The translations under genes and the position numbers were made by a program. Of a stretch of 45,560 bases of DNA, positions 23,393 through 31,303 are shown one piece after another (positions within the stretch are counted from its first letter, which is position 1; the number at the start of each line of letters is the position of its first letter). The stretch is from Anaerolineales bacterium (GTDB lineage Bacteria; Chloroflexota; Anaerolineae; Anaerolineales; UBA11858), in assembly GCA_018335275.1 (NCBI GenBank), contig JAGXKM010000009.1:1-45560 (forward strand), in the 5' to 3' direction. A model generated the notes under the pieces. That model was not told the DNA's origin. It was given only the letters and a program-made list of their open reading frames with translations, and made no database searches.

Positions 23393-24442
23393 TTAGCGGT
23401 TAAGTAATATTTTTTGTGTGGGGTAAGGAAGATCAATATTCTCCTCTTCAAAACGCCGGTAGAGAGCGAGATTGATGGCTTCCTGCACATCCATATAGAA
23501 ATTATAATCAGGTCGTTCCACAAAATAGACCACTTCGAAAATCAAAGCAAAATCACCCAACGTTTTCAAATGCGCGCGGTCAAATCGGACTTCCTCCAAG
23601 GATTGGACAACATCTTCCACCATGGACGGAATTCGCTGCAGAGTTTCATGGGGCGTCTCATAAGAAACACCAAAGGTAAAGTCTATTCTTCGTTCCTGCA
23701 GGCGTTTGTAATTTCGGATGCGGCTGTTCAACAAATCCGAGTTGGAAAACACCAACTCTTCTCCTGACAGGCTGCGAACACGTGTGCTCTTCAACCCGAT
23801 ATCCTCCACTGTGCCCGCAAATTCATCCACGACGATAAAATCTCCCATGGCAAAGGGTTTGTCCATAGCAATGGATAAGGACGCAAATAGATCCCCCAAT
23901 ACATTTTGGACTGCCAGAGCAACCGCAATACCTCCAATGCCTAAACTGGCGATGAGCGAGCTGATCTCCACGCCCAAGTTATCCAGGATCAGCAGCCCAA
24001 CCAGGACCCAGAGAGCGATTTTCGCTACCAGACCAAAGGCATCAATGGTGGTGGCAGATTCCCCTTGGTCCTCATCTAATTTCCCAGAAACGCCGCGGTT
24101 GACATAAAAGGTGATCAAACTCATCCCCCAGAAACCAAGCTGCAGGAAAAAGGCAATCCGAACTATTTTATTCAATATAGATTGATCGCCTTCCGGCAAG
24201 GTCAACACCAAAGACCCCACATAGATGCCGATGATCAATAAAAAGAAGAAACGCGTTTGCCGGATCAAGGGGAGAAAGTAATCGTCGATTTCCGTGGCAG
24301 ATTTTTCAATCAGGGAAACCACGCGGTTTCTAGAAAACTTTTTTATCAATTCCAGGGCGATCACTACAAGCCCCAGGATGCCAAATGCCATGAGCCATGT
24401 TTGAATGCTGTTCCCATAGAAAAGGGTATCTAAGAAATTCAT
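23393..24442 (-). CDS. Mechanosensitive ion channel (MscS) family protein
   Basis: GIGGIAVALAVQNVLGDLFASLSIAMDKPFAMGDFIVVDEFAGTVEDIGLKSTRVRSLSGE. Confidence 0.92.
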   Translation of the reverse strand: MNFLDTLFYGNSIQTWLMAFGILGLVVIALELIKKFSRNRVVSLIEKSATEIDDYFLPLIRQTRFFFLLIIGIYVGSLVLTLPEGDQSILNKIVRIAFFLQLGFWGMSLITFYVNRGVSGKLDEDQGESATTIDAFGLVAKIALWVLVGLLILDNLGVEISSLIASLGIGGIAVALAVQNVLGDLFASLSIAMDKPFAMGDFIVVDEFAGTVEDIGLKSTRVRSLSGEELVFSNSDLLNSRIRNYKRLQERRIDFTFGVSYETPHETLQRIPSMVEDVVQSLEEVRFDRAHLKTLGDFALIFEVVYFVERPDYNFYMDVQEAINLALYRRFEEENIDLPYPTQKILLNR

Positions 24443-24596
24443 TCCCTACCTTCCTTTCCTTATCTGCCTTTCACCACATAATTCCGATCATATTATAGAT
24501 ACTCTCTGCTTTGCGTAAAGAGGAACCATCTCTTTAAAAACAAACGGGGTAAGTTTTGATTTCCGCAATGGAAAACAATACATGGGAAATACATTC

Positions 24597-25706
24597 CTAT
24601 CCGCTATTGGGAGGGGATTGGAATGCCCGCACGAAACCTTTTCTCTGATCTTCCTCCATCCGGTGATAAACCGTATAGGTTGGATAAGGGAGGTCAATCC
24701 CTGCATCGGTCAGAGCATCATACAGGCAGCTGTTGAGTTTATCCAAAATACGCCTTGTTTCAACATAATTTTCGATCCAACATCGAACTCGGAATATCAT
24801 CGCATAATCACCCCATTCAACGAACAAAGCTTCGATCCTTCGGTCTTTCATCACCCAACCCTGGCTGCTGACTGCGTCGATCATCACTTGTCTGGCTTGA
24901 TCGATATCTGTACCGTAGCCCACGCCGACATGGGTTTCCACGCGATACACAGTGCTGGGGATGGAATGATTGACAATCAGGCTTGTTCCGATCACGGAGT
25001 TGGGGATAACAACCATGCGATTATCGCGGGTTCGAATGCGGGTGCTGCGCAATCCCACATCCTTCACATCTCCCCAAGTATCTAACTCCAGGATCTCAAT
25101 CCTGTCCCCAATCCTGAAAGGCCTATCCGCCATGATCACAAAACCGTTGATCGTGTCCTCCAGCGTGGCGCGAGCAGCCAGAGCCACCGCCAAAGATCCA
25201 ATCCCAAGTGTGGTAACGAACGCGCTGATGTTGACTTCAAAATGGCTCAGAAAGAGGATGAGGGCAATGAAACCAATTAAAACGAGCAACACGCGGCGGG
25301 CAAAAGGTAAGACTTGCTCATCTAACGTAGAGTCTGTTTGTTCGACCATCTTCTGGTCATACCATGCGGTTATTCGATTAACGACCCTCACGCTAGCAAG
25401 GATGGCCAACATCCAATAAAGGATAAAGAAGGAGTGGTTCCTATAAACTACCCATTCCTCTGGAAAAAAAGGGAGCCGTTGGACCCCTATCTGAAGTCCG
25501 ATGAAGATAGATAACAGGAATACGGGTAACCTGAGCGCCTCTAGGAGCGCATTATCAAATTCTGTCCGCGTACTCTCCAAAATCCGGATCACGACCCGAT
25601 CAAGGATCAATAATAATAAACGGCCCAACACGAACGAACCAGCTAGGATCCCCATGGAGATCAGGACTTCTTTCCATTGGGAAGAGGTGAGCAGAAGTTG
25701 AGTCAT
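24597..25706 (-). CDS. Mechanosensitive ion channel (MscS) family protein (second paralog)
   Basis: GIGSLAVALAARATLEDTINGFVIMADRPFRIGDRIEILELDTWGDVKDVGLRSTRIRTRDNR. Confidence 0.92.
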   Translation of the reverse strand: MTQLLLTSSQWKEVLISMGILAGSFVLGRLLLLILDRVVIRILESTRTEFDNALLEALRLPVFLLSIFIGLQIGVQRLPFFPEEWVVYRNHSFFILYWMLAILASVRVVNRITAWYDQKMVEQTDSTLDEQVLPFARRVLLVLIGFIALILFLSHFEVNISAFVTTLGIGSLAVALAARATLEDTINGFVIMADRPFRIGDRIEILELDTWGDVKDVGLRSTRIRTRDNRMVVIPNSVIGTSLIVNHSIPSTVYRVETHVGVGYGTDIDQARQVMIDAVSSQGWVMKDRRIEALFVEWGDYAMIFRVRCWIENYVETRRILDKLNSCLYDALTDAGIDLPYPTYTVYHRMEEDQRKGFVRAFQSPPNSG

Positions 25707-27640: not shown

Positions 27641-29356
27641 TCAATATCCAAGGTCTTCCAGGGATTCCTCCGCACTTTGCTCTGAAATATCCTTTATCCC
27701 CCTTTTCAATTGTTTCCAGAAAGAATCGTCATATCGGCGCGACCGGATGGGAAGCGGCATAGGCACCCCCCAACCTAAGAGAAGCACTTCCTCTTTCGGC
27801 TGTAGGCGGGAGAGCATACCCCGCAGCACTTGCCGACCGGCCAGACCTGAAAGCACGGCCCGGATATCATCCTCGTCACCCAGCCAGCCCGAGATCCGCG
27901 TCCCGAGTTGGGACATAACCTCATCGTAGATTTGGGAGGGACGCTGGTCGATGATCAGCAAGGTGACATAATATTTGCGCAGTTCCCTGGCGATGGTGCT
28001 GAATGTGGTCTGGGAAGCCATCTCCGGGTTCAGCAGCTTATGGGCCTCTTCCACAACCACAACCAAGGAGCGAGGCTCCTCCTTTCCAGAACTTCGGAAT
28101 TGGTTTGTTCTCCACTCCCAACGTTCCCGGATCTTCCGGGTCAGCAAGTTCGACACCAACAAATAATCCAGATCACTCTCATGTTTTCCAAAAGAAAGCA
28201 CTACGTGGCCACCCGCTTCCAGCATCTTGACGATCTCCTGGATACCATCCGATGCAGGTTCTTCCACGATATAAGGACTGTTGAACACCCTGCGAAGTTT
28301 ATTATGCAAGGCCTCCGCAGCCATCACATTCACTCCATTGTCATTCGCCCAGTAAGCCACACTATCGCTGGCCGGGACCTTCTTTCCGTCACTATTCTCC
28401 ACGAATTGACCGACGGACATAGCCCGGAAAGCCCGAAACCAATCCTTCCGCCCAAATGATTTCACCAGGGCATCTAAGGTGGTAGGGGTTGTCTCCCGCA
28501 GATTTAACTCCCTTTGCAGCAGCATGATATCTGTTGGTTGGATGGCTGACATGGGAATTTCTAAATTAAAATCAGGACTTTGTCCGCGAATTTGCGCTCC
28601 CTTACCCAAACCGACCACACGCACCTTACTGGAAAACTTCGTTTTCAACCCGATCACACGTTCTCCTGTGTCGGAAGCCGTATCATCAAAGCCGTATTCA
28701 TTATGCATATCAAACACCAGCACAGAAGCGGTGTCGAATTGAATAAGCCCGGCCAACATGATCCGGGTTAAAAAGGATTTTCCGGTTCCCGTGGCTCCAA
28801 AAATACCGGAGGAGCGCTGGATGAATTTATGGAGATTAATCCGGACCGGATGTTCACCTTCCCGTGTTTCACCGATCACAAAATTGCCTTTCTCTTCTTT
28901 TCCAAATATTTCAGCGATGTCTCCCCGGGTCGCCATGCGGACACGGGCATGATGAGGGGGGACAGTTTTTACCGGGATCGGGCGGGGTTGATCCTTTTTT
29001 CCAGACTCGATGTCCTGCGCCCATTCTTGATATTCCTCAGACACCAGTTCAGGACCTCGCTCCAACATCAATGTTGGCAGCACCTCTAGATCCGTATAGA
29101 GCGTCTTTTCATGAAGCATGCCAGCCAATTCAGGGGAGAAACGATCTTCACTCATCTCTTCCGCAAAACGCTCCTCGGTAGCCCCCAACTGAAGGTCCGT
29201 CACCAAACCGTAAAACAACCACTGATCGCTCTCCAGGACGACAAACGATCCCTCCTGAACCTCAAAAGAGGGGACGGTCAAACGAACTCTGAGGTGATCC
29301 TTCAGGCTTCCACGAACCAGGTAACCGATCAGATTTGTGTTTTCTGCCATATCCAT
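27641..29356 (-). CDS. herA: HerA-like ATPase (HAS-barrel + HerA/FtsK-type ATPase)
   Basis: 571 aa; N-terminal barrel IGYLVRGSLKDHLRVRLTVPSFEVQEGSFV; Walker A GATGTGKS; Walker B LVVVVEEAHKLL; IIDQRPSQIYDEVMSQLGTRISGWLGDEDD. Confidence 0.9.
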   Translation of the reverse strand: MDMAENTNLIGYLVRGSLKDHLRVRLTVPSFEVQEGSFVVLESDQWLFYGLVTDLQLGATEERFAEEMSEDRFSPELAGMLHEKTLYTDLEVLPTLMLERGPELVSEEYQEWAQDIESGKKDQPRPIPVKTVPPHHARVRMATRGDIAEIFGKEEKGNFVIGETREGEHPVRINLHKFIQRSSGIFGATGTGKSFLTRIMLAGLIQFDTASVLVFDMHNEYGFDDTASDTGERVIGLKTKFSSKVRVVGLGKGAQIRGQSPDFNLEIPMSAIQPTDIMLLQRELNLRETTPTTLDALVKSFGRKDWFRAFRAMSVGQFVENSDGKKVPASDSVAYWANDNGVNVMAAEALHNKLRRVFNSPYIVEEPASDGIQEIVKMLEAGGHVVLSFGKHESDLDYLLVSNLLTRKIRERWEWRTNQFRSSGKEEPRSLVVVVEEAHKLLNPEMASQTTFSTIARELRKYYVTLLIIDQRPSQIYDEVMSQLGTRISGWLGDEDDIRAVLSGLAGRQVLRGMLSRLQPKEEVLLLGWGVPMPLPIRSRRYDDSFWKQLKRGIKDISEQSAEESLEDLGY

Positions 29357-29358
29357 TC

Positions 29359-29976
29359 CTATACAATCCTTTCCTCTCCAAGAGTATCCTGTAAAGCGCC
29401 AAGTAATGAAGTAAGGGTCTGATAATCATCCTGTAAGAGCAGGATCAACTCCTCTACTGCTCTCTTCGACCAGGAAGGGTCGTCTGATTTTTCGTGGATC
29501 TGATGGGACTGCCGGATATGGGCCGCGAGCAATTCTACCAGCGGGATATCCTCATGGCGCAAGAGATGCCTGAAATATCCAAAACGTCCCTGTGATGTGA
29601 AATTCATGACCTCCGGTGGAGAACATTTATAGATTAAATCCAGGCTCAACGGGGGACGGGGAGGGAGCACATGGCGCAATTTCGAATCTTCTTCATACCC
29701 CACACTAAGCACACTGATTTCCACAGGGATGTTTCGATTCACCTGTGCATCCTGGATCGTGCTGGGTTCTACCTCAGGTGCGGTTGCCAAATGTCGGACC
29801 AAACCATCATCGTCCACATGAAGATCATGCACAAGACCATACACCTGGGCATCTTCTCCAATGGGCGCTCTGACCAAGCTGCCAAAGGAGGGCACATCGA
29901 TTTTATCCACCTGGCAGCCGACAACGAAACCGCTCATCCCTGCCCGCAGCATGCGTCCAATTTTTATTTCATTCAT
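29359..29976 (-). CDS. Small HAS-barrel-like protein of the NurA-HerA operon, uncharacterised
   Basis: 205 aa; IGRMLRAGMSGFVVGCQVDKIDVPSFGSLVRAPIGEDAQVYGLVHDLHV resembles the HerA N-terminus. Overlaps the nurA stop (ATGA). Confidence 0.75.
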   Translation of the reverse strand: MNEIKIGRMLRAGMSGFVVGCQVDKIDVPSFGSLVRAPIGEDAQVYGLVHDLHVDDDGLVRHLATAPEVEPSTIQDAQVNRNIPVEISVLSVGYEEDSKLRHVLPPRPPLSLDLIYKCSPPEVMNFTSQGRFGYFRHLLRHEDIPLVELLAAHIRQSHQIHEKSDDPSWSKRAVEELILLLQDDYQTLTSLLGALQDTLGEERIV

Positions 29977-31178
29977 CGTCTATACCTCTTTCTACCAGCC
30001 TGGTCTTTATAATATCGTTTATGCGATCTTTGACCTACAGACACTCCTCTTTTCCGCCGCTCCCTGAGGATCATCTCCGTCAACAACTCCTGCTCTTCTC
30101 TTCCCACTACAGCGATCTCATGCGCCCTGTGTAATACATAGGGATATCCGACACCGCCCATCATGCGGCACTGCTGTAAAAGAACAGCATGCAGGCAATT
30201 CATCTTCTCCCCATCTTCAACAACCCAAGCAGGGACCTCGACTCTCGCCAACCATGGATTCCCTGCTCGTCCCACATTGAGATAAAAGAAATGCAAGGCG
30301 ATCTCATCTGTGTAATCCGAGCTCGAGAAAGCTTGAATCCCAAACACACCTGACCGCTCCCCGGGTCGTAAAAGGCTGGCGTATAAATCGATATCTGATA
30401 AACCTTGAAAAGGATGGTGCTCTGCTATTTTACTTAATTCCCCATCTGCTAGAGTGGCTAACTCCAGCAATCTGAGCACATAATCAGCCCTCGGTTTATC
30501 AACGTATCCGGCCGTTACAGTGCCCATCCGGCTCAGGTCACGAAGCGCTTCTTGATAGCGTTTTAATCCCTTTCGGAAGGCAGGGGACCTGCTTCCACTC
30601 CGTTCATGGGATTCCCAAAGCTCTAAGGGCCCATCTGTCAGCGTGACCAGCGGGAAAGGATCCTTTCCCGCTTTACACAATGGTCCTGCTTTGATGGCGA
30701 TATATTCGCGTTCTGCGACATCCCGCTCGAGGGCGACATGTCCCTGTGAGACCAAACCATGCGAGGTGTAAATATCCTCCTCAAATCGGAGCTGTGTTTC
30801 AATGGACGTCTGGGGAGGATAATCCCGATGCAAATCGAACCAGATCCCACCCACATTCACTAAATAATACTGCACTGCAGCGTGGGGATCCGGGTTGATT
30901 TGGGATCCGTCAGCAGCTAATATCCCGACTTTATCCGGTATTTCCGGGGCCGTGAAACGCGAGGTAAGCGCCTCTTTTTTGGGACGGGCACATCTCAAGG
31001 CAGGATATTGACCCGCAGCTTTTTCCACTTTGCCCTGCAGTCGATCTGTTTGCTGGGCGAATTCTTGCAGCAAATCACCTGCGCGTCTTCGAATTTTGTT
31101 CAAATGATTTTCTCTGACCACCGCCCGCTCACCCAAGTCCCTCACCTGGGGTTGGAGCTGTTCATAATTCAAACTCAA
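29973..31178 (-). CDS. nurA: NurA-domain DNA end-processing nuclease
   Basis: VGILAADGSQINPDPHAAVQYYLVNVGG and GVGYPYVLHRAHEIAVV NurA motifs. TTG start at 31178 preceded by strong SD (GAGGAGGGAG); the ORF extends to 31247. Confidence 0.87.
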   Translation of the reverse strand: MSLNYEQLQPQVRDLGERAVVRENHLNKIRRRAGDLLQEFAQQTDRLQGKVEKAAGQYPALRCARPKKEALTSRFTAPEIPDKVGILAADGSQINPDPHAAVQYYLVNVGGIWFDLHRDYPPQTSIETQLRFEEDIYTSHGLVSQGHVALERDVAEREYIAIKAGPLCKAGKDPFPLVTLTDGPLELWESHERSGSRSPAFRKGLKRYQEALRDLSRMGTVTAGYVDKPRADYVLRLLELATLADGELSKIAEHHPFQGLSDIDLYASLLRPGERSGVFGIQAFSSSDYTDEIALHFFYLNVGRAGNPWLARVEVPAWVVEDGEKMNCLHAVLLQQCRMMGGVGYPYVLHRAHEIAVVGREEQELLTEMILRERRKRGVSVGQRSHKRYYKDQAGRKRYRR

Positions 31179-31303
31179 GAATCTCCCTCCTCGAACATAT
31201 GTTTCAAGTATTGTACAGGCGAGTCTCTCTTTTGACAAGTTTAACAAAAGGAGACAACATTCTCCAGTTATCCAGATGAAAGGTGGCCCAATCCTCTGTG
31301 TTA

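Follow-up and report, generated by a model that had tools for sequence, protein, structure and literature searches.

For twenty years NurA and HerA have been studied as a two-protein machine. In the end-resection complex of Deinococcus radiodurans, six HerA subunits are bound to two of NurA (HerA6-NurA2), the HAS barrels form the collar of the HerA ring, and acidic HerA residues (D78, E80 and D81) contact basic motifs of NurA (PMC9960219). In the Thermococcus complex, NurA is contacted by the HAS-domain α1 helices and the loops preceding them; the purified complex cuts both strands, and the production of 3' overhangs is still unexplained (PMC12977600). The two genes are also found in an archaeal mre11-rad50-nurA-herA operon (Constantinesco 2002/2004, as cited in PMC7776575), and a HerA-type motor is joined to an effector in the anti-phage complexes TdpAB, HerA-SIR2 and HerA-DUF4297.

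The locus described here lies on a 45,560-nucleotide stretch of DNA from an Anaerolineales bacterium (the window), which is a single contig of a 2.47-Mb draft genome. As in the Deinococcus system, homologous nurA and herA genes with intact motifs share one operon, but unlike the published two-component complexes there is an extra conserved gene between them, whose product we refer to as MID. The genes run in the order nurA, MID, herA on the minus strand, with the following features:

29973..31247, minus strand: nurA, 424 aa (PF09376, E 1.1e-19)
30105-30923, minus strand: NurA nuclease domain (E 3.9e-20), the sole match genome-wide
29359..29976, minus strand: MID open reading frame, 205 aa, ATG start, without a Walker A motif
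27641..29356, minus strand: herA, 571 aa, a complete HerA (DUF87, E 1.3e-28)
29060-29332, minus strand: HAS barrel of HerA itself (structure model)
29093-29188, minus strand: docking insert of HerA (structure model)
28775-28798, minus strand: HerA Walker A, GATGTGKS (the Walker B is EEAH)

The end of nurA overlaps the MID ATG by 4 nt and a 2-nt gap separates the MID stop from the herA start, exactly the tight packing that had been read from the sequence in the original prediction. Both flanking genes keep the motifs of their families: the motif-I DGS of NurA is present in the window and in 158 of 160 NurA relatives, the Walker motifs are intact in 105 of 105 HerA relatives, and the model of the window HerA matches Sulfolobus HerA in the PDB (E 3.3e-20). 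The C-terminal tail of the window NurA is strongly basic, with a net charge of +9 over its last 44 residues; the mean for the tails of its relatives is +2.5.

In the AlphaFold model of MID, for which 81 sequences were used (pLDDT 82, pTM 0.79), six strands form a barrel and five helices come after it; the protein can be divided as follows:

29674..29961, minus strand: HAS barrel, residues 6-101 (AlphaFold and PDB matches)
29731..29814, minus strand: acidic two-helix insert, residues 55-82, after the fourth strand and before strand 84-96
29650..29667, minus strand: linker motif LPPRPP, residues 104-109 (hhalign)
29377..29622, minus strand: C-terminal five-helix domain, residues 119-200, in place of the HerA ATPase

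The barrel strands comprise residues 8-12, 16-22, 34-40, 43-54, 84-96 and 99-101, and the C-terminal helices residues 120-128, 134-139, 146-163, 169-180 and 185-199. An order of four strands, two helices and a further strand is common to the models of MID and of the window HerA, in which the corresponding elements are strands 9-15, 22-26, 38-43 and 46-59, helices 62-69 and 75-85, and strand 87-99. The insert helices of MID (56-65 and 71-80) are thus the counterparts of those two HerA helices, and the position of the insert, judged from the models and the residues reported in PMC9960219 and PMC12977600, corresponds to the element with which HerA docks NurA. The two-helix insert is modelled at low confidence in both proteins; its mean charge is -1.8 in MID and -2.7 in HerA. 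Conservation extends over the whole of MID, with P29 invariant, many further positions near-invariant, the linker prolines P105, P106 and P108 conserved at a level of at least 90% across the phylum, and L181, L188 and L192 among the conserved columns of the C-terminal domain.

When the MID model was compared with the PDB using Foldseek, the best 50 of 53 matches (E<=0.001) were all HerA or TdpA proteins, identifying the barrel as one of the HerA (HAS) type; one of them is the HerA from the Thermococcus complex with NurA (E 1.2e-5), and the HerA proteins of TdpAB, HerA-SIR2 and HerA-DUF4297 are among the best structural matches. No stand-alone barrel is found among those best 50, and the locus also differs from the three anti-phage systems in that its effector is NurA. 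The HAS-barrel fold that had been foreseen for a stand-alone subunit is therefore what structure prediction returns, but MID is not a bare barrel, since the conserved five-helix domain is also present.

The relationship to HerA is not evident from simple sequence searches. BLASTP of MID against HerA revealed no real similarity (best E 5.2), the window MID matches nothing in Pfam, NCBIfam or PADLOC, and phmmer and profile searches of PDB sequences with MID gave nothing meaningful; the connection is therefore made by comparing profiles with profiles and by comparing structures. Using hhalign, profiles of 110 MID and 54 HerA proteins were aligned in one collinear run of 114 columns (E 0.0014), spanning MID 1-130 and HerA 6-152, with a score of 32.4; the highest score among 100 column-shuffled controls was 27.1, the reversed control scored 14.4 and NurA 17.9. 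The run does not stop at the barrel but takes in the linker and the start of the HerA motor domain, its first elements: the MID consensus past the barrel is LPPxPPxxHxxVYxCxxxEVxxF and that of HerA VPxHFxxVxxAxxxDV, and LPPRPP of MID aligns with PVKTVPPHH, the linker leading into the HerA RecA domain. A second, diverged MID subfamily (see below) aligned with the same HerA set over 131 columns (E 2.7e-4), and both subfamilies are collinear with HerA residues ~5-150. There was no match between subfamily 2 and the HerA proteins of its own type (E 0.13), and subfamily 2 is consequently tied to HerA by way of subfamily-1 HerA and of MID itself. Finally, the Pfam HAS-barrel family (PF09378) matches 24 of 46 MID relatives at E<1 (best E 4.6e-7), although not the window protein. 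The parallel to the HerA N-terminus drawn in the original prediction thus stands by profile and by structure and fails by plain BLASTP.

Taken together, MID is almost certainly a HAS-barrel homologue. It is homologous to the HerA barrel and the linker that follows (HerA ~5-150); the RecA motor has been lost, and MID has a helical domain of its own. It resembles the HAS barrels of Deinococcus, Saccharolobus and Thermococcus HerA in the barrel itself, in the position of the two-helix insert and in a collinear profile that includes the linker; it differs from them in being a separate polypeptide with no motor and with its own C-terminal domain. At 205 aa and without a DUF87 match, in a family where a Walker A pattern occurs in only 1 of 190 relatives, MID lacks a motor and is therefore not a HerA. 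Natural fusions of MID to HerA or NurA were not found. The MID-bearing operon is a variant of the known NurA-HerA system, and MID is a previously unnamed protein that is neither HerA nor a bare HAS barrel; no description of it was found in the literature searched, in which coverage of subscription journals was thin.

Our survey covered Chloroflexota and plasmids. Scanning contigs with the single MID sequence yielded no relatives and a broad MID alignment yielded no usable stretch; a narrower alignment recovered 298 from the contig scan, and the relatives, where the genome collection gives names, are Chloroflexota and mostly Anaerolineales. Across 399 genomes of the phylum, 238 of them NurA-positive, MID-like proteins were detected in 145 with the single sequence and in 159 with a profile, and NurA is encoded in 157 of those 159 subfamily-1 genomes (238/399 overall; Fisher p 1e-46). 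Sufficient flanking sequence was available for 125 loci, which are not independent genomes because the same genome is sometimes present in two collections: 79 have nurA-MID-herA, 31 nurA-MID, 8 MID-herA and 7 MID alone, so that in 118 loci one or both partners lie close to MID. All 20 genomes picked for unusual arrangements, including MID alone, encode a DUF87 (HerA-type) protein.

Among the NurA genomes that seemed to have no MID, a gene downstream of nurA encoding a protein of ~195 aa surfaced as a second subfamily, related to the first over 157 columns (hhalign E 2.4e-12) and present in 73 of 379 genomes. Counting either subfamily, MID occurs in 223 of the 238 NurA-positive genomes and in only 4 NurA-negative ones; the associated p value, 5e-87, ignores shared ancestry and has descriptive value only. 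Several of the 15 NurA-positive genomes without MID have very weak NurA matches. Judged from gene content, the system in this phylum would not be limited to the two components of HerA6-NurA2, and we consider it very likely that MID is a functional partner of NurA-HerA. The conservation of a nurA-X-herA triad far beyond close relatives, together with the predicted HAS-barrel fold, upholds the original interpretation overall.

Some Chloroflexota depart from this layout. In five loci (L192-L196, from genomes G132, G339, G022, G351 and G148), nurA follows a Rad50/SMC-type gene and neither MID nor herA was detected nearby; in all four of these loci that were scanned, the next gene after nurA encodes a zinc-ribbon CpXC-domain protein (PF14353). 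In G351, a MID subfamily-2 gene adjoins the best DUF87 gene instead.

The family is also found outside the phylum. On haloarchaeal plasmids, a gene annotated as 'hypothetical protein' between nurA and herA belongs to the MID family: a Chloroflexota subfamily-2 MID finds the Halobaculum gene by tblastn (E 2e-18), and three further haloarchaeal plasmids also match. In Halobaculum and in halophilic archaeon DL31 the gene order is metallophosphoesterase, SMC ATPase, NurA, MID, HerA. These plasmids thus carry together the same gene set as the archaeal mre11-rad50-nurA-herA operon but add a fifth gene, MID subfamily 2, between nurA and herA. Complete or partial five-gene operons of this kind lie on haloarchaeal megaplasmids at L215:1-7417, L216:1-7306 and L214:1-4143. 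The HerA proteins of these plasmids are 39-43% identical to Chloroflexota subfamily-2 HerA, which suggests that the whole DNA-end-processing module was probably transferred across domains. With MID in almost all NurA-bearing Chloroflexota and in haloarchaea, a third part of the NurA-HerA machine, so far treated as two-part, has probably been overlooked. The middle gene is not common to all NurA-HerA operons: in the nurA-herA-metallophosphoesterase-SMC operon of a Pontibacillus (Bacillota) plasmid no gene lies between nurA and herA. Upstream of that operon, on a 0.9-Mb plasmid (L218:1964-6263), two hypothetical proteins match no Pfam family; on a Halorussus plasmid (L217:2710-2871), a 162-nt 'DES-1 beta-lactamase' prediction overlaps the 3' end of herA and is probably spurious.

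A contribution to phage defence had been raised alongside DNA end resection, but it is not indicated by the window neighbourhood or by PADLOC. The neighbours (MscS channels, DUF3179, SIMPL, a bPH-domain protein and a weak PMT_2 match) are ordinary or housekeeping genes, no defence genes were seen among those scanned, and neither MID nor NurA has a PADLOC match, leaving the idea of a defence island unsupported. HerA-based anti-phage systems pair an effector gene with a defence neighbourhood; here, the co-occurrence of MID and NurA is instead broad and near-obligate. Two differing MscS-type mechanosensitive channel genes lie in tandem, 154 nt apart, at window positions 23393-25706 on the minus strand.

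What might MID do? That it serves a Mre11-Rad50-linked NurA-HerA DNA-end machine as its dedicated third subunit, with an adapter as the likeliest role, seems to us an evenly balanced proposition, and for the adapter role specifically, which we infer, the chances are slightly below even. In such an arrangement, the HerA-like barrel of MID would stack either on the ring barrels of HerA or between them, and the NurA dimer would be engaged by the insert and the helical domain of MID. The six-fold motor would thereby be coupled to the two-fold nuclease, with DNA leaving the HerA channel for the active sites of NurA. HerA of the MID-bearing lineage keeps its own docking insert and complete barrel, indicating that MID supplements the HerA docking surface rather than substituting for it. 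This retention, the acidic MID insert at the docking site and the basic NurA tail are what favour an adapter. Sequence distances across 100 loci gave partial correlations of 0.82 for MID-HerA, 0.36 for MID-NurA and 0.17 for NurA-HerA given MID; the last being lowest is as expected if MID sits between the other two, although these values are weak evidence because the loci share ancestry, and rate differences confound them too. On the other side, a HerA with a complete barrel and insert could bind NurA directly, and the Deinococcus and archaeal proteins work as a pair (PMC9960219, PMC12977600), so that an adapter is in principle unneeded.

The resemblance of MID to precisely the NurA-binding part of HerA, but with no motor, could instead mean that it competes with HerA. 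As a gatekeeper, its insert would cover the surface of NurA to which HerA binds, holding the nuclease inactive until MID is displaced by a real end or by Rad50-Mre11. The 4-nt overlap of nurA with MID would fit such a role, as would the fact that nurA-MID without a nearby herA is the commonest partial arrangement (31 of the 125 loci as against 8 for MID-herA). Against it, MID stays with herA and not nurA in those 8 loci, its sequence distances follow HerA more closely than NurA, and the large conserved C-terminal domain exceeds the needs of a simple blocker; we regard competition as rather unlikely. The same MID-HerA correlation, the strongest of the pairs, would be accommodated if MID were a factor for ring assembly or loading that joins the HerA barrels transiently, selects hexamer or heptamer or opens the ring for DNA, and then leaves or stays peripheral during translocation. 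HerA does switch between heptamer and hexamer, the heptamer having been proposed as a DNA-loading intermediate (PMC5715905), and the HAS barrels form the collar of the ring (PMC9960219). No direct evidence speaks against such a factor, which we nevertheless consider unlikely; it leaves unexplained both the retained NurA-docking insert and the frequent pairing of nurA with MID in the absence of herA.

The genomic association with Rad50 invites a further possibility, that MID tethers HerA-NurA to Rad50-Mre11 with its helical domain as the Rad50-binding part. In 17 of 20 subfamily-2 or MID-less loci the gene immediately upstream of nurA is of the Rad50/SMC type (AAA_23 and SbcC Walker B domains, with a Rad50 zinc hook in the Anaerolineae copies), and in several Anaerolineae such a gene comes straight after herA; these neighbours group MID with the archaeal Mre11-Rad50-NurA-HerA end-processing set, and the haloarchaeal operon has all five genes. 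Most subfamily-1 loci have no rad50 nearby, however, and in the window genome the gene is on another contig; we hold a tether to be quite improbable. Least credible of all, to the point of being negligible, is that MID is a non-functional remnant or split product, a barrel that came away from a broken HerA: homology to the HerA N-terminus is what such a relic would show, but we reject a split gene since the adjacent HerA keeps its full barrel and since MID, in which P29 is invariant, is conserved across two domains of life and in two or more diverged subfamilies.

Returning to the adapter, our tentative proposal, held with somewhat less than even confidence, is that a large branch of the NurA-HerA machines, those of Chloroflexota and haloarchaeal megaplasmids, would be three-protein assemblies (five with Mre11-Rad50) in which a motor-less HerA paralogue would make up a separate tier of barrels, placed between HerA ring and NurA dimer, and control the hand-over of duplex from motor to nuclease, for example by setting which strand is cut. 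A near-obligate third component, present phylum-wide and in haloarchaeal operons, may be one possible missing piece for the 3' overhang problem. MID also shows how the docking collar of a ring motor, once duplicated, can find a second use as a protein in its own right.
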